This document shows positions 1 through 20,170 of a DNA stretch of 20,170 bases, piece after piece. The notes under the pieces are model-generated. The model was not told the origin of the DNA. It was given only the letters and a program-made list of their open reading frames with translations, and ran no database searches. The DNA lies in the IMG/VR virus record IMGVR_UViG_3300018417_000104, positions 1 to 20,170 of that record; one strand, given 5' to 3'. The position numbers were made by a program, and so were the translations under genes. The number at the start of each line of letters is the position of its first letter. Positions within the stretch are counted from its first letter, which is position 1. The DNA is from a virus.

Positions 1-78
1 GCGCTTGGCTCAATGTTTCAAATATCTTCTGTAGCATTTATGATAATTGCTTTTTATCTAATTGATAAAGGACTATGA
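1..78 (+). CDS. C-terminal end of a membrane peptide (partial)
   Basis: The frame is open from the left edge of the window to TGA at 76-78 and encodes 25 residues of which about 16 (roughly residues 5-20, from MFQISSVAFMI to FYLI) are hydrophobic, followed by a short polar tail IDKGL. This looks like the last transmembrane helix of a small membrane protein whose start lies outside the window. The stop overlaps the next start (CTATGAG), so the two genes are probably translationally coupled. No family can be named from so little sequence. Confidence 0.45.
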   Translation, partial: ALGSMFQISSVAFMIIAFYLIDKGL

Positions 79-221
79 GCAAAGACTTTGAGTACGAAGA
101 AAAGATAGCAGAGTTATTAGAAATACCTTTGAAGTGTCCTCATTGTAAAGAAGTACTAAAAGAGTACGAAACAGAAGAAAAACCTATTAATCCACCAGTT
201 AAAAGATATTGGATGAAATGA
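75..221 (+). CDS. Small unknown protein, 48 aa
   Basis: ATG at 75 overlaps the preceding TGA by four bases, and the frame ends at TGA 219-221, which in turn overlaps the next ATG at 218. The product begins MSKDFEYEEKIAELLEIPLK and contains a single CPHC pair (C-x2-C) near residue 24. That could be half of a zinc site or a redox pair. The rest is rich in Lys and Glu. Phage early regions often hold chains of such tiny overlapping genes. I do not recognise the family. The support is the overlapping start and stop arrangement and coding-like composition. Confidence 0.5.
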   Translation: MSKDFEYEEKIAELLEIPLKCPHCKEVLKEYETEEKPINPPVKRYWMK

Positions 222-427
222 GTAAAGTAGAAGAATATAAAGCAAAAATTACAAAACAGTTTGATGAACTGGAAGAAATGATGAACAAACAAATGCATCT
301 TACTCATCCCGAATTAGTCGAGGAAAAGATGTATTCAATAAATTATAAGTGGCATTTTATATCTGAAGAAGATAGAGACTTCTATCAAGGATGTAGATAT
401 GCCATTGAAAACGGACTAAAGTGGTGA
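218..427 (+). CDS. Small unknown protein, 69 aa
   Basis: I place the start at ATG 218, which overlaps the upstream stop as ATGA, rather than at the in-frame TTG at 209. The product starts MSKVEEYKAKITKQFDELEE and looks helical and charged, with an aromatic C-terminal part (YKWHFISEEDRDFYQGCRYA). It probably forms a short coiled or helical domain. The stop TGA at 425-427 overlaps the GTG start of the next gene. No family recognised. Confidence 0.55.
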   Translation: MSKVEEYKAKITKQFDELEEMMNKQMHLTHPELVEEKMYSINYKWHFISEEDRDFYQGCRYAIENGLKW

Positions 428-789
428 GTGGAGTATATAATCAAACTTACTTTAATAATAGACCTGAAGAAAAAGAAAGAGAAGGTGTATTGTATGGAGT
501 CATTTTAGTCAATCAAAAAACCTTTGAGCGCGAATGCATCAAAGTCGGAATCGCTAGTGGTAAAGACTGGCGGCACGTAATTAAAAGAAGTCGTGGATTT
601 AAAGGATACGATTTGCGTATACAACGAACCTACCACGATACAATCTATAACTGCTGGCAAATCGAGCAGTCCCTTCATGAACAGTTTAAGCACGATAGTT
701 ATAAACCAAAACAAAAGTTTGGTGGGCATACGGAGTGCTTTAACATAGATTCAAAAATATTAACGTACTTTCCAAAAAATAAATCTTGA
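424..789 (+). CDS. GIY-YIG / T5orf172-like nuclease-fold protein
   Basis: The 121-aa product has the order of elements seen in the T5orf172/MUG113 branch of the GIY-YIG superfamily. A first strand GVLYGVILV (about 21-29) is followed by a second strand with KVGIA (40-44) in the place of YIG, then an Arg-bearing helix (WRHVIKRSRG, candidate catalytic R50). A later helix carries E81 (IEQSLHEQF), and the domain closes with the HTECF element (102-106). Such proteins cut or bind DNA, and in phages may act in homing, repair or host DNA degradation. The start is taken as GTG 424 overlapping the previous TGA (GTGA); GTG 421 is also possible. The gene is a single domain with no separate DNA-binding module, so a free-standing nuclease is likelier than a homing endonuclease. 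Activity is inferred from the fold only. Confidence 0.65.
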   Translation: MSGVYNQTYFNNRPEEKEREGVLYGVILVNQKTFERECIKVGIASGKDWRHVIKRSRGFKGYDLRIQRTYHDTIYNCWQIEQSLHEQFKHDSYKPKQKFGGHTECFNIDSKILTYFPKNKS

Positions 790-814
790 CTTTTGGTTAT
801 TCGTTTGATATAAT
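786..814 (+). promoter_or_regulatory. Near-consensus sigma70-type promoter (P1)
   Basis: The -35 box TTGACT (786-791) and -10 box TATAAT (809-814) are separated by 17 bases. A TG at 806-807 gives an extended -10 (TTTGATATAAT). Transcription would begin near 821, giving a leader of about 20 nt that contains the AGGAG ribosome site. The -35 box overlaps the stop codon of the preceding gene. The same arrangement with the same TTTGATATAATAT core recurs at 11229-11257. Confidence 0.85.
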
Positions 815-826
815 ATATTCATATTT

Positions 827-832
827 AGGAGA
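827..832 (+). promoter_or_regulatory. Ribosome binding site fixing the ligase-fragment start
   Basis: AGGAGA lies about 10 bases upstream of TTG 843 and downstream of promoter P1. The frame is open back to TTG 786, but that codon is part of the -35 box and would not be present in the P1 transcript. This site therefore supports TTG 843 as the start. Confidence 0.7.
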
Positions 833-842
833 AAGAAAAACT

Positions 843-1607
843 TTGAGACAGATAGTACCGCCAACAAATTGTCCAGCATGTAACAGTGATTTGGAACTTG
901 TAAACGATCAACTATTTTGTCGCAACAGTCTTTGTCCTGCACAGTCAGCAAAGAAATTAGAACACTTTGCACGAACAATCAAGATCAAAGGTCTAGGTCC
1001 TTCGACTATAGAAAAACTTGGTCTTGAGACTTACAATGATATCTACTCGTTATCCCAAGAGCAGATATCAAATTTATTGGGATCAGAGAAATTAGGTACG
1101 AAACTACACAATGAGATAGAAAAATCAAAGAGTGTCGACCTTATAACTCTACTTCCAGCTTTTTCGATACCGCTGATTGGCTCAAGTGCTTCAAATAAAT
1201 TAGCGAAACACATCTCATCATTAAGTGAGATAACCCTAGAGATATGTACAGAAGCAGGTCTGGGTCCGAAAGCGGCGTCGAATCTTATTGATTGGTTAGT
1301 AAACACTTTCCATTTCGAAGAATACTATAACTTACCCTTTTCTTTTACTTGTAAAAAGCAAATACAGGTCAGTCCAACTGACACTAAGGGAACAGTTTGT
1401 ATCACAGGAAAGTTGAAAAGCTATCCAACTAAAGCAGCCGCTCAACAAGTATTAGAAAAGTACGGCTTTGCAGTTAAGGATAATTTAACGAAAGATGTTA
1501 CTCTCGTTTTAAATGAGAGTGGTATTGAAAGTGCAAAAACCAATAAAGCAAAACAAATGGGAATAACAATATATAGTAATATAAAAACATTATTAGAGGA
1601 TAATTAA
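843..1607 (+). CDS. C-terminal half of NAD-dependent DNA ligase (zinc finger-HhH-BRCT)
   Basis: The 254-aa product matches only the rear half of a bacterial LigA. It has a four-Cys zinc finger (C10, C13, C26, C31; NCPACNSDL and NSLCPAQ), then helix-hairpin-helix repeats (KIKGLGPSTIEKLG around 47-60, IPLIGSSASNKLAKHI around 109-124, AGLGPKAASNLIDWL around 138-152). A BRCT domain (about 182-254, GTVCITGKLKSYPTKAAA) completes it. The NTase domain with the KxDG lysine and the OB fold are absent, and the start falls at the OB/zinc-finger boundary. By itself it cannot form ligase-adenylate. T5-type phages encode the ligase as two polypeptides, so this may be a 'subunit B' with its partner elsewhere in the genome; alternatively it is a DNA-binding clamp of another function. 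It is the first gene after promoter P1 and is followed after one base by the Myb-repeat gene. Start TTG 843 is chosen from the RBS at 827-832. Confidence 0.85.
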   Translation: MRQIVPPTNCPACNSDLELVNDQLFCRNSLCPAQSAKKLEHFARTIKIKGLGPSTIEKLGLETYNDIYSLSQEQISNLLGSEKLGTKLHNEIEKSKSVDLITLLPAFSIPLIGSSASNKLAKHISSLSEITLEICTEAGLGPKAASNLIDWLVNTFHFEEYYNLPFSFTCKKQIQVSPTDTKGTVCITGKLKSYPTKAAAQQVLEKYGFAVKDNLTKDVTLVLNESGIESAKTNKAKQMGITIYSNIKTLLEDN

Positions 1608-1608
1608 A

Positions 1609-2325
1609 ATGGCATTACCAAAATGGACAGACGAAAGAACTCAACAATTAACAGATTTTGTTGGTTCTGAAAGCCCTATCTCTCAAGCTACTGTTGCTAA
1701 CGCAGCTGATGAACTAGAAACATCAACTCGTTCAGTATCAAGCAAATTGAGAAAAATGGGATATGACGTTGAACTAGCTTCAGCATCAGCTTCTAAATCT
1801 TTTTCTGAAGAACAAGAAGCAACTCTAAGAGCATTCGTTAGCGATAACTCAGGCTCTTACACATATGCAGAAATTGCATCACACTTTGAAGGCGGAAACT
1901 TTTCTGCTAAATCAATTCAAGGAAAAATTCTTTCTATGGAACTTACAGAGCATGTAAAACCAGCTCCTAAAGTAGAAACAGTTAGAACTTATACTCCTGA
2001 AGAAGAAAGCACATTTGTAGAAATGGTTAACGGTGGATCTTTCGTAGAAGAAATCGCAGACGCATTAGGCAAATCTGTAAATTCAATCAGAGGTAAAGCT
2101 CTTTCTTTACTTAGAAGTGGCGACATCAACGCTATTCCAAAACAAAAAGAAACAAAAGGCTCAAGCAAAACTGACGTTTTAGCAGATTTAGATATCGCTG
2201 GAATGACTGTTGAAGCTATTGCTGATGAAATTGGAAAAACTGTTAGAGGTGTAAAAACCATGTTGACAAGACGTGGACTAGCATGTTCTGACTACAACGG
2301 CGCAGCTAAAAAAGAAATCGGTTAA
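1609..2325 (+). CDS. Four-repeat Myb/HTH-like DNA-binding protein
   Basis: The 238-aa protein consists of four related units at about residues 4-56, 63-115, 127-178 and 186-230. The first three open with an aromatic-Thr/Ser-x-Glu/Asp signature (KWTDER, SFSEEQE, TYTPEEE) typical of Myb/SANT-like helices. All four end with a recognition-helix-like motif (RSVSSKLRKMG, KSIQGKILSME, NSIRGKALSLL, RGVKTMLTRRG). Tandem Myb-like units normally bind double-stranded DNA, so a transcription regulator or DNA-coating protein is the best guess; the target is unknown. ATG 1609 has AGAGGA at 1595-1600. Codons are visibly richer in pyrimidine endings (GCT, TCT, ACT, GTT) than in neighbours, suggesting strong expression. 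It is the last gene before the palindromic terminator, in one unit with the ligase fragment. Confidence 0.75.
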   Translation: MALPKWTDERTQQLTDFVGSESPISQATVANAADELETSTRSVSSKLRKMGYDVELASASASKSFSEEQEATLRAFVSDNSGSYTYAEIASHFEGGNFSAKSIQGKILSMELTEHVKPAPKVETVRTYTPEEESTFVEMVNGGSFVEEIADALGKSVNSIRGKALSLLRSGDINAIPKQKETKGSSKTDVLADLDIAGMTVEAIADEIGKTVRGVKTMLTRRGLACSDYNGAAKKEIG

Positions 2326-2345
2326 TTAAACCTTTTTATTTTAAT

Positions 2346-2373
2346 AAGCAGGGGTAGATCTACCCCTGCTTTC
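2346..2373 (+). terminator. 24-bp perfect palindrome, probable intrinsic terminator
   Basis: AGCAGGGGTAGA (2347-2358) is followed immediately by its exact reverse complement (2359-2370). As RNA this folds to a 10-bp, GC-rich stem with a GAUC tetraloop, preceded by AATA and followed by the T-rich TTTCTGTTGT. It sits 21 bases after the stop of the Myb-repeat gene, the usual place for a terminator. The U tract is interrupted, so termination may be partial, and the symmetry would also suit a dimeric DNA-binding protein. Confidence 0.7.
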
Positions 2374-2401
2374 TGTTGTACATTTTACTTGGGAGAGTTC
2401 A

Positions 2402-3754
2402 TTGAATATTGCGTCGGCGTTACTAAAACAAATTATTGTTCAGAAAGACCTTGACACATGGTCTAAACTAAAAGAACATTACCTACCTGGTGAATATCAG
2501 TCAATATTCCGCATCCTTGATAAACATATAGATAATTATCAAGACCTTCCACAATTCGAAGATCTCCAATATGAAGTGCGAGATCGAAAACTTCAAGAAA
2601 AAATATTCGCAATCGAGTCAGTAGATGTCGAGGTAGACGCGTGGCTTTTACTTGACTATCTAAAAAATGAATATGCACAAATCGAAATACTAGATGAACT
2701 AGATAAGTATATCGACAATACAGTTGCAATGGCAACAGCAGAAGAAAATATAGAACAACTCCAAGAAATAGTTTTAAGGGTAAGTGACAAGGTAGATGTC
2801 AAAGCACCTGAAGAAAGTATGCAAAGCATTTCTTTGTTTGAAGATGACAAAGAACTAGCAAGTTACTTACCCTTAGGACTCAATAGTGAGTACGACTCTC
2901 AAATCCAGTTCTCTCCCAAAGACTTAGTGCTTGTGGGCGGGAGACGAGGTGCAGGTAAATCTCTTACCTGTTGTAATCTAGCTTCTAATGTATATGATTC
3001 AGGGCGTAGTGCTTTGTATTTTACAATAGAAATGGACAGTAGACAAATTCTTCAGAGAATTTGTTCAGTCTCAACTAAAATTCCACTTAAACGATTACGC
3101 AGTAAAATGCTTTCATCAGAGGAGTGGAGTAGAGTTGGCGGCTGGTGGGCAGGACGTTTTGATGGTGGACATGACTTATTACCAGAGTTTGAAAAAACTC
3201 ATGACTTTGATACATTCCACAAGAACTTAACAAAACTTCCCTTACATAAAGAAAGACAGTTGGATGTTATCTATGATCCAGCCCTTACTCTTTCTAAGAT
3301 ACAGTCCGAACTCGATAAAAAAGTTAATCAACTTGATGTCGGAGTAGTAATAGTAGATTATCTAAACCAAGTCAAACGTCACAATGCACCAAGTCGATCT
3401 GGTCAATACGACTGGACAGAACAGATTGAAGTAAGTAAGAAAATGAAACTTTATGCACAAGAGTATGAAACATTGTTTTTTGCACCATATCAAACAGATG
3501 CTAGTGGTGAAGCTAGATTTGCAAAAGGTATACTGGATGCTGCAGATGCAGCGTTCTCTCTTGAAACATGGGAACAATCAGATAATTGCATGACTTTTAA
3601 TTGTACAAAAATGAGAAGTAATCGTATGCAAAGTTTTACTAGTGAAGTAGACTGGGAAACTTTAAAGATTGGACCTGGCTCAGCACTGAATCCGAAAGAA
3701 AGAGAAGATATAGAAAGTAACATGAAAACTGGAGAAAACGTAGACGACATATGA
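2402..3754 (+). CDS. DnaB-type replicative DNA helicase
   Basis: The 450-aa protein has an N-terminal helical region (about 1-160) and a RecA-like motor domain. Walker A is GGRRGAGKS (179-187), the segment after it includes FTIEMD (207-212), and Walker B is VVIVDYLNQV (315-324). Near the end is a KMRSNRMQSFTSEVDWETL segment resembling the C-terminal motif of DnaB/gp41 helicases. It would form a hexameric ring unwinding the fork for PolA and recruit the primase encoded at 4649. There is no fused primase. The start is TTG 2402 with GGGAGAG at 2391-2397. No clear promoter is visible between the palindrome at 2347 and this start, so expression may depend on read-through. The stop overlaps the next ATG (ATGA). 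Confidence 0.88.
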   Translation: MNIASALLKQIIVQKDLDTWSKLKEHYLPGEYQSIFRILDKHIDNYQDLPQFEDLQYEVRDRKLQEKIFAIESVDVEVDAWLLLDYLKNEYAQIEILDELDKYIDNTVAMATAEENIEQLQEIVLRVSDKVDVKAPEESMQSISLFEDDKELASYLPLGLNSEYDSQIQFSPKDLVLVGGRRGAGKSLTCCNLASNVYDSGRSALYFTIEMDSRQILQRICSVSTKIPLKRLRSKMLSSEEWSRVGGWWAGRFDGGHDLLPEFEKTHDFDTFHKNLTKLPLHKERQLDVIYDPALTLSKIQSELDKKVNQLDVGVVIVDYLNQVKRHNAPSRSGQYDWTEQIEVSKKMKLYAQEYETLFFAPYQTDASGEARFAKGILDAADAAFSLETWEQSDNCMTFNCTKMRSNRMQSFTSEVDWETLKIGPGSALNPKEREDIESNMKTGENVDDI

Positions 3755-3912
3755 TTTTATATACAGAAGCACAATTGATGATAGCATATACTAGGTATGT
3801 GCGAAAGTTGGAAGAATCTACAGTAAAAGTGATTACTCCAACAATAGAGGAGTTTCGTAAAATTTACGAAACAGAATTAGAAGAACAACTATGGGATGAA
3901 ATAAATGACTAA
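3751..3912 (+). CDS. Tiny unknown protein, 53 aa
   Basis: ATG 3751 overlaps the helicase stop as ATGA, and TAA at 3910-3912 falls inside the next gene, whose ATG is at 3905. The product begins MILYTEAQLMIAYTRYVRKL and ends with an acidic helix (EELEEQLWDEIND-like). A single helical hairpin is likely. Comparable tiny genes sit next to the helicase in marine T4-like phages, but I cannot name a family. The support is the tight coupling on both sides and full use of the 150-base gap between better-supported genes. Confidence 0.6.
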   Translation: MILYTEAQLMIAYTRYVRKLEESTVKVITPTIEEFRKIYETELEEQLWDEIND

Positions 3913-4162
3913 AACAGAAAAAGCAGCACTACAAGAATCAGTAGTTCAAGTAGCAGTTGCACTAGCAATTAACTTTCCATTACAAACTTTTATGTTATGG
4001 TTAATGATAGAAAGATGGCAATGGGAAAGTGCTTTTCTTATCTCTTTAACAACAACTTTTATAATGACAGTTGTAGCATTAATCAGAACATACATGATTC
4101 GTATGGAGATAGAAAAAAGACGCAGACACGGAATCTGGAGAAAACAGCGTGGCAGCAGATAG
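3905..4162 (+). CDS. Small two-helix membrane protein, 85 aa
   Basis: Two hydrophobic segments (about residues 13-35, VVQVAVALAINFPLQTFMLW, and 43-63, AFLISLTTTFIMTVVALI) are joined by a short ERWQWES loop. They are followed by a strongly basic tail (EKRRRHGIWRKQRGSR), so both ends should lie in the cytoplasm by the positive-inside rule. Its place between helicase and primase suggests tethering of replication to the membrane, but this is inference. ATG 3905 overlaps the preceding stop by 8 bases, and its own stop overlaps the next gene by 14 bases. Confidence 0.7.
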   Translation: MTKTEKAALQESVVQVAVALAINFPLQTFMLWLMIERWQWESAFLISLTTTFIMTVVALIRTYMIRMEIEKRRRHGIWRKQRGSR

Positions 4163-7748: not shown

Positions 7749-8214
7749 TATTCGTTTTCCAGTTTATGTAGTTCACACTGATGATGTTCTCACAAGAGAT
7801 GGATTGTTATGGTGTGATGGAAAAGTAATAGACGACAAGAATATAGAAGGAAACTCCTTAGGAGAAAGACGATTAAGAAGTCCAATAAAACATTTATATG
7901 ATTTAAAGTATCAAATAGATGACTTTGGAGGACTCATAAAACATAGAGGAAGATTCTATGTAGATTCAAATGGAAAGTTTTTCATTTACGAAAAAAGTAA
8001 AAGTGCAAAATTGAAGTATCACTTAATAGGAAAGTTAGAACATAAAGATGTTGCTACTCTTATGTGGATTCAAGGCATACCTTTTCCTTTTGAATTACCA
8101 AGACCACCTGCAATGACAATGCGTTACGCAGGTATTTTATATATAGGTGATAAACCATCTTTCGTATATGATTTCTCAGAAACTTTACAGAAAGATAGCT
8201 GGAGAAAAATATGA
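7735..8214 (+). CDS. Unknown protein, 159 aa
   Basis: The start is placed at ATG 7735, inside the end of the polymerase gene (14-base overlap), because the reading frame further upstream runs through the conserved polymerase C-terminus. The product starts MKLNDIRFPVYVVHTDDVLT and appears mixed alpha/beta with a Pro-rich stretch (GIPFPFELPRPPAM, about 114-127). It has no Cys cluster, P-loop or membrane segment. I do not recognise it. It is coupled at both ends, to the polymerase and to the oxygenase (ATGA at 8211), so it belongs to the same translational chain. Confidence 0.7.
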   Translation: MKLNDIRFPVYVVHTDDVLTRDGLLWCDGKVIDDKNIEGNSLGERRLRSPIKHLYDLKYQIDDFGGLIKHRGRFYVDSNGKFFIYEKSKSAKLKYHLIGKLEHKDVATLMWIQGIPFPFELPRPPAMTMRYAGILYIGDKPSFVYDFSETLQKDSWRKI

Positions 8215-8795
8215 TAAGAATGGCATATGCAGTACCTTTTTGGTACTCTAAAAAAGACAGGATATCCGACGAAGCCTGTGATGAAATAATAAAACTCGGA
8301 AAAGAAAATGGATTAGATAAAGCAGGAATATACGGCGCTACTGGAACTTCTCAAAAAAGTAATAAAAAACTGCGAACATCAAATGTATCGTGGTTTGAGA
8401 AAGGACATTTCTTAGAAACTATGTTACAAGGATATACTACGCTAGCAAACTTAGAAGCGTGGAACTTTATTGTAACAGGTAAAGAGCAAATACAGTTTGG
8501 TGAGTATAAAACAGGTGGTTTTTATAACTGGCATACAGATTCAAATTTGAATCCTTCAGTGCCTTTTCGAAAACTATCTATTACAGTTAATTTATCTGAT
8601 CCAAAAGATTATCAAGGTGGTAACTTTGAACTAAAAAATCCACAAGGGCAAGAACTAAAAATGCCTTTAGGACAGTTAAGAAAAAGAGGAACAGTAATTA
8701 TTTTTCCTTCTTTTCTACAACATAGAGTTACTGAAGTAAAAAGAGGGACACGATACTCACTAGTTCAGTGGTATAATGGTCCCGAGTTTAAATAG
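8211..8795 (+). CDS. 2OG-Fe(II) oxygenase (prolyl-4-hydroxylase-like)
   Basis: The 194-aa double-stranded beta-helix protein shows the iron triad H108-x-D110 (NWHTDSN) and H171 (LQHRV), with R181 (RGTRYSLVQW) in the position that binds 2-oxoglutarate. FPSFLQHRVTEVKRGTRYSL is characteristic of phage PKHD-type hydroxylases. It uses O2 and 2-oxoglutarate to hydroxylate a substrate, which could be a protein, a nucleotide or DNA; the sequence does not say which. Similar genes are common in marine phages. ATG 8211 overlaps the previous stop (ATGA) with GGAGA upstream. The stop TAG is embedded in the AGGAG of the following gene. Confidence 0.88.
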   Translation: MIRMAYAVPFWYSKKDRISDEACDEIIKLGKENGLDKAGIYGATGTSQKSNKKLRTSNVSWFEKGHFLETMLQGYTTLANLEAWNFIVTGKEQIQFGEYKTGGFYNWHTDSNLNPSVPFRKLSITVNLSDPKDYQGGNFELKNPQGQELKMPLGQLRKRGTVIIFPSFLQHRVTEVKRGTRYSLVQWYNGPEFK

Positions 8796-12291: not shown

Positions 12292-12795
12292 ATGTTAACA
12301 GTAGGAGACAGATTCCCAGACTTACACATGAAAGGTGTAAATGAAGAAAATGAAATCATTGATGTAGATGTATTACTTGCCGAATGGTCAGTAGTATATT
12401 TCTATCCAAAAGATTTTACTTTTATTTGCCCAACAGAAATAGCTGGCATGGACGAATTAAGTAGTCGTTGTGATGTTATTGGTGTAAGTGGAGACAATGA
12501 GTTTTGTAAACTTGCTTGGAAAAAAGATAACTCTCTCATTCGAGACATAAAACATATTCTTGCAGCAGATTGCGGTCTTCGACTTTCTCGTCAACTAGGA
12601 ATAGTTAATGAGGAGGAAGGAGTATGCTATCGTGCAACTTTTATAATTGATCCCGAAGGAATCATTCAACATGTATCAGTAAACGCACTAGATACAGGAA
12701 GAAGTGCAACTGAAATCTCACGAACACTACAAGCCTTACAGGCAGGTGGTCTAACAGGGTGTTCTTGGACACTCGGGGACGAGTTCGTAGGATGA
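12292..12795 (+). CDS. AhpC/TSA-family 2-Cys peroxiredoxin
   Basis: The 167-aa thioredoxin-fold protein carries the PxxxTxxC active site (P39, T43, C46 in YPKDFTFICPTE) and R114 in the conserved ATFIID-type strand (CYRATFIIDPEG). A likely resolving cysteine is C157 in GGLTGCSWTLGDEF, a C-terminal element typical of AhpC-like peroxiredoxins. It would reduce hydrogen peroxide or organic peroxides using an external thiol donor; no thioredoxin or AhpF is visible here. It may protect dNTP synthesis and the phage genome from oxidative stress. ATG 12292 follows AGGAG (12281-12285). It is an unusual insert between SSB and the gp47 nuclease, and its stop overlaps the gp47 start (ATGA). Confidence 0.88.
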   Translation: MLTVGDRFPDLHMKGVNEENEIIDVDVLLAEWSVVYFYPKDFTFICPTEIAGMDELSSRCDVIGVSGDNEFCKLAWKKDNSLIRDIKHILAADCGLRLSRQLGIVNEEEGVCYRATFIIDPEGIIQHVSVNALDTGRSATEISRTLQALQAGGLTGCSWTLGDEFVG

Positions 12796-19753: not shown

Positions 19754-19778
19754 AAAGGGGCTTTAAGCCCCTTTTTTA
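19754..19778 (+). terminator. Intrinsic terminator closing the + strand block
   Basis: AAAGGGGCT (19754-19762) pairs with AGCCCCTTT, with a short TTA loop, followed by six consecutive T. It starts a few bases after the stop of the small gene at 19521 and is a textbook rho-independent terminator. The stop codon of the converging - strand gene (TTA on this strand, 19776-19778) lies in the T run. On the - strand the same hairpin is followed by only three T. Confidence 0.92.
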
Positions 19779-20170
19779 TTGTCTTTTAGCATGAACAATT
19801 CTTTGTTCATAGTTTTCAAAATGCTTAGGATCACTAAAATGTATATCGCAAGCAACAGACAGTCTTGGTTCATCCTTTATGTTTTCTTTTACTCCATGCC
19901 AAAGGTGGCAATCAATTAAATGCAACTCCCCTACATTATTAGGAATATGACCTACATCATCATAAAAAGTAAAACAATTATCAGGTCCTGAGATAAAAAT
20001 GTTACAAGCATAAAATATATTTTCAGGATGACCATGATTGTGCATAGGTATTCCTTCGCCTTTATTCAGAATATTAACCCAACATTGAATCCAAAATTCA
20101 TCTTCATCTTGCATAATTGGTAAGTCAAAAAACTTTTTTGTTATATCAATTTCAGGTATGTAATTTAAAA
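19776..20170 (-). CDS. 2OG-Fe(II) oxygenase-like protein, C-terminal part (partial)
   Basis: This gene converges on the + strand block. Its frame stays open to the right edge (residues LNYIPEIDITKKFFDLPIMQ precede the first in-window Met), so the 5' end lies outside; about 131 residues are visible. The pattern WIQCWVNILNKGEGIPMHNH, then GHPENIFYACNIFISGP, FTFYDD, HLIDCHLWHGV and DEPRLSVACDIHF resembles a group of putative phage 2OG-Fe(II) oxygenases. The HNHGH cluster and the His of LWHGV are candidate iron ligands, and Arg of PRLSVA may bind 2-oxoglutarate. It differs from the oxygenase at 8211 and may belong to a structural or late module read from the other strand. Confidence 0.7.
   Translation of the reverse strand, partial: LNYIPEIDITKKFFDLPIMQDEDEFWIQCWVNILNKGEGIPMHNHGHPENIFYACNIFISGPDNCFTFYDDVGHIPNNVGELHLIDCHLWHGVKENIKDEPRLSVACDIHFSDPKHFENYEQRIVHAKRQ

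Follow-up and report, generated by a model that had tools for sequence, protein, structure and literature searches.

A marine T5-like phage gene assigned to subunit B of a heterodimeric NAD+-dependent DNA ligase, and its ligA counterpart on an overlapping contig

The window, that is, the whole stretch of DNA analysed, is a virus fragment of 20,170 nucleotides (IMG/VR record IMGVR_UViG_3300018417_000104), whose left end lies just 842 bases upstream of ligB. The features at the locus are the following.

786–814, + strand: sigma70-type ligB promoter, TTGACT (786–791), 17 bp and TATAAT (809–814), read from the sequence and conserved in relatives.
827–831, + strand: ribosome-binding site AGGAG, 11 nt 5' of the TTG start, read from the sequence; relatives have a similar purine-rich stretch.
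843–1607, + strand: ligB, subunit B (zinc finger, helix-hairpin-helix and BRCT domains) of a heterodimeric NAD+-dependent DNA ligase, by its matches to phrog_3498, PG07 subunit B and chain B of 9hu3.
870–935, + strand: Cys4 zinc finger (C10, C13, C26, C31), with all four cysteines invariant in 33 relatives.
936–1352, + strand: helix-hairpin-helix (HhH) domain (about residues 32–170), of which residues 29–171 superpose on LigA 1dgs.
1365–1604, + strand: BRCT domain (about residues 175–254), by a PF00533 match and a BRCT superposition.
1609–2325, + strand: D5-like DNA-binding regulator (phrog_323, E 7e-48), adjoining ligB as in the T5 order ligB-D5.

The ligB reading frame starts with TTG, encodes 254 amino acids and contains no internal stop codons. 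In the profile search, LigB was aligned with positions 388–648 of the 652-position LigA model TIGR00575 (E 1.6e-33), corresponding only to the last 40% of LigA; in E. coli LigA (2owo) the aligned part comprised residues 400–662. Pfam by itself gave only weak BRCT and HhH matches to LigB, that to PF00533 covering residues 184–243 with a score under the gathering cut-off. Both the HhH and the BRCT folds were present in the predicted structure of LigB (pLDDT 86), in which residues 29–171 were superposed on LigA 1dgs with Z 15.7 and 2.0 Å over 143 residues, and the BRCT region on BRCT domains with Z 8–10. A match of the whole length was obtained with phrog_3498 ('NAD-dependent DNA ligase', PHROGs), residues 3–253 of LigB being aligned with 2–252 of 256 (E 3.2e-67), and this subunit-B family match begins at the zinc finger. 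The preliminary description, made from the DNA letters, had seen here the rear half of LigA, with zinc finger, HhH and BRCT domains, as a stand-alone reading frame, and these alignments agree with it.

Matches to LigB were found in 991 phage records, of which 968 matched along 80% of the protein or more. The best was 'subunit B' of Vibrio phage PG07 (47% identity); homologues in T5 (about 40% identity) and other phages carry the same annotation. Together with 265 IMG/VR stretches, these 968 phage records constitute the relatives of LigB size.

The promoter and ribosome site that had been proposed for ligB alone were both found, and the promoter is conserved: relatives with as little as 52% protein identity still have, in nearly all cases, TTGACA-N17-TATAAT, identical to the consensus at 12 of 12 positions, 27–33 bases upstream of the start codon. 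The upstream sequence of one contig (L006) deviates from that of the other relatives, possibly as an assembly variant. Promoters P-K28b and P-K28a are annotated in T5 immediately 5' of ligB, in the same place as here. Just upstream of ligB, a small protein for which only a T5orf172 domain was detected is encoded at 421–789 of the window.

Gene order was compared with that of T5 and PG07. The order in T5 is ligA, P-K28b, P-K28a, ligB, D5, D6 helicase, primase, polymerase, D10, D11, D12, D13, D14 and D15. In the window, ligB is followed by the D5-like gene, a DnaB-like helicase, primase, a family A polymerase, a D10-like helicase, an SSB-like gene, SbcD-like and SbcC-like genes, a PDDEXK/RusA-like nuclease and a flap exonuclease, which is the T5 order with some extra genes interspersed; the succession from ligB through D5, helicase and primase to polymerase agrees with PG07 as well. 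A peroxiredoxin (AhpC/TSA, PF00578, E 8e-25) is encoded at 12292–12795, between the SSB-like and SbcD-like genes, and two 2OG-Fe(II) oxygenase-like reading frames are located at 8211–8795 and 19776–20168 (- strand).

A profile search of the 20,170-base record for the adenylation family PF01653 was negative, in agreement with the statement of the preliminary description that 20 kb of this DNA hold no NTase half. The statement holds for the record and not for the phage population, as the half is missing because the contig ends about 1.2 kb short of ligA. Contig L005 overlaps bases 1–4083 of the window over 4,083 bases with 99.8% identity and extends 9 kb further left. On it, a search for a LigA NTase/OB polypeptide with a KxDG motif, as the same description had proposed, yielded an intact, separate gene of 316 amino acids (L005:6987–7937) with the motif KLDG, whose stop codon lies about 1.2 kb to the left of window base 1. 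Its product has the domains PF01653 (E 6e-28) and DNA_ligase_OB (PF03120, E 4e-25), and its residues 1–315 were aligned end to end with phrog_3359 (E 4e-98). The same arrangement is seen on contigs L001 and L002. The alignment of the L005 LigA reaches residue 388 of E. coli LigA and that of LigB begins at about 400; the two genes therefore split LigA in the linker between the OB domain and the zinc finger, in accordance with the clean domain boundary earlier claimed for the start of ligB. Claims of a 'missing partner' based on a 20-kb fragment thus need overlapping contigs. Further genes of this phage population lie to the left of the window: a glutaredoxin-like reading frame (PF00462, E 3e-11) is placed immediately 3' of ligA (L005:7895–8158), and an IscU/NifU-like Fe-S scaffold protein (PF01592, E 7e-39), an unusual cargo for a phage, is encoded at L005:4993–5406.

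To place this pair among its relatives, 50 LigB-bearing records were searched for PF01653, which was present in 41 of them. On contigs with both genes, LigA is a separate gene upstream of LigB, at a distance of 0.5–2.0 kb in the nearer group and of 2.6–5.9 kb in another group of marine T5-like contigs (L070, L113–L192; up to 105 kb). Every contig with only one of the genes has a flank shorter than the maximum spacing of its own group. Exactly one LigB was found on 15 of the 16 long LigA contigs (22–105 kb), and the sixteenth stops 1.1 kb past LigA. The matched LigA and LigB stretches of the 47 paired contigs contain no stops, and KLDG was found in all 42 contigs on which both genes are near full length. 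A group with LigB of 52–58% identity (L069, L072, L073, L076–L078 and L080) apparently had no LigA within 2.5–4.6 kb upstream; this absence was rejected as unsupported, because the spacing in the group, established with the L070 LigA as query, is 2.6–5.9 kb and the contigs can end too soon. LigA and LigB distances across contigs were correlated with r = 0.90, a value that shared ancestry alone would lead one to expect, and it is not taken as a sign of contact.

The best structural match of the LigB model was chain B of 9hu3 (Z 17.5, 239 residues, 37% identity), with an rmsd of 12.1 Å that is probably due to domain orientation. One-chain LigA proteins followed, with Z about 15–16 and 2–3 Å over 143–170 residues. 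The model of the A subunit was of low quality (pLDDT 68) and unfit for a fold search. In sequence comparisons with the separate chains of 9hu3, chain B matched LigB with E 6e-37 and chain A matched the L005 LigA with E 6e-64. This entry is entitled 'PR1 phage heterodimeric DNA ligase in complex with 21-mer nicked DNA containing phage nick sequence', so that ligases of this split type have a precedent as two-chain complexes on nicked DNA; literature searches found no open-access paper for it.

Three known systems can be compared with the pair. The T5 genes ligA and ligB (T5.116/T5.117; phrog_3359, phrog_3498) are likewise two genes with the break between the OB domain and the zinc finger, with a promoter directly 5' of ligB and with D5, helicase, primase and polymerase following; they differ in an identity to the window phage of about 40% (LigB) and 43% (LigA), and in a gap between ligA and ligB of 0.2 kb, compared with 2.0 kb and several small reading frames here. 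In the ligase of phage PR1 (PDB 9hu3, also 9i5i), chain B covers the whole of LigB and chain A matches the A subunit, but it belongs to another phage. In one-chain bacterial LigA (E. coli 2owo, T. filiformis 1dgs), LigB is aligned with residues 400–662 and the A subunit up to 388 (E. coli numbering); the bacterial enzyme is a single polypeptide, in contrast to the two genes broken here in the OB-Zn linker.

Sequence, gene order, the occurrence of the A subunit on an overlapping contig and the heterodimer solved as 9hu3 make it almost certain that the window gene is the ligB gene of a marine, T5-like phage (Demerecviridae-related) and encodes subunit B of an NAD+-dependent DNA ligase of the heterodimeric type. 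The split ligase of T5-like phages is an already known type, of which this gene is a further marine member, and of the readings first put forward that of a B subunit as in T5-like phages is the one retained. The other, in which the back half of LigA would have been repurposed as a DNA clamp or nick sensor working alone, with no NTase partner, agrees with a 20-kb record devoid of an NTase domain, but it is very improbable in view of the intact LigA gene 1.2 kb past the contig end on a 99.8% identical contig, of relatives that hold both genes whenever the flank suffices, and of a solved homologue that is a ligase heterodimer. That a full-length ligase gene is decaying here and has left this remnant, as the presence of only half of a normal LigA might suggest, is still less credible given so many relatives of the same extent, the lack of stops, the invariant zinc cysteines, the conserved consensus promoter and a front half intact as its own gene.

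As subunit B of the split ligase, and by analogy with the homologous structure and the known mechanism of LigA, LigB of the window phage would form a heterodimer with LigA that binds and seals nicks. The A subunit, comprising the adenylation and OB domains and an N-terminal Ia-like segment, would be adenylated by NAD+ at KLDG, giving ligase-AMP. LigB would bind LigA and close round the nicked DNA in trans, a clamp role that the C-terminal half performs in cis in one-chain LigA; by encircling the nick with LigA, which would be the sealing subunit, it would enable AMP transfer and sealing. Nicks of Okazaki fragments are the likely substrate. T5-like phages package nicked DNA, and if the window phage does so like T5, nicks in the incoming genome would be a further likely substrate. 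The T5 nick core RGCGC occurs at 8 sites in the 20 kb of the window against 13.5 expected, a count to be read knowing that T5 has few major nicks and that the recognition site may differ here. LigB, which has a strong, conserved promoter of its own, might also act independently of LigA, for instance as a nick-bound factor recruiting replication proteins, but this is considered improbable.

With this pair, the split ligases known from T5-like phages gain a marine branch, and the arrangement in two genes and the separate promoter of ligB are seen to be old and stable.
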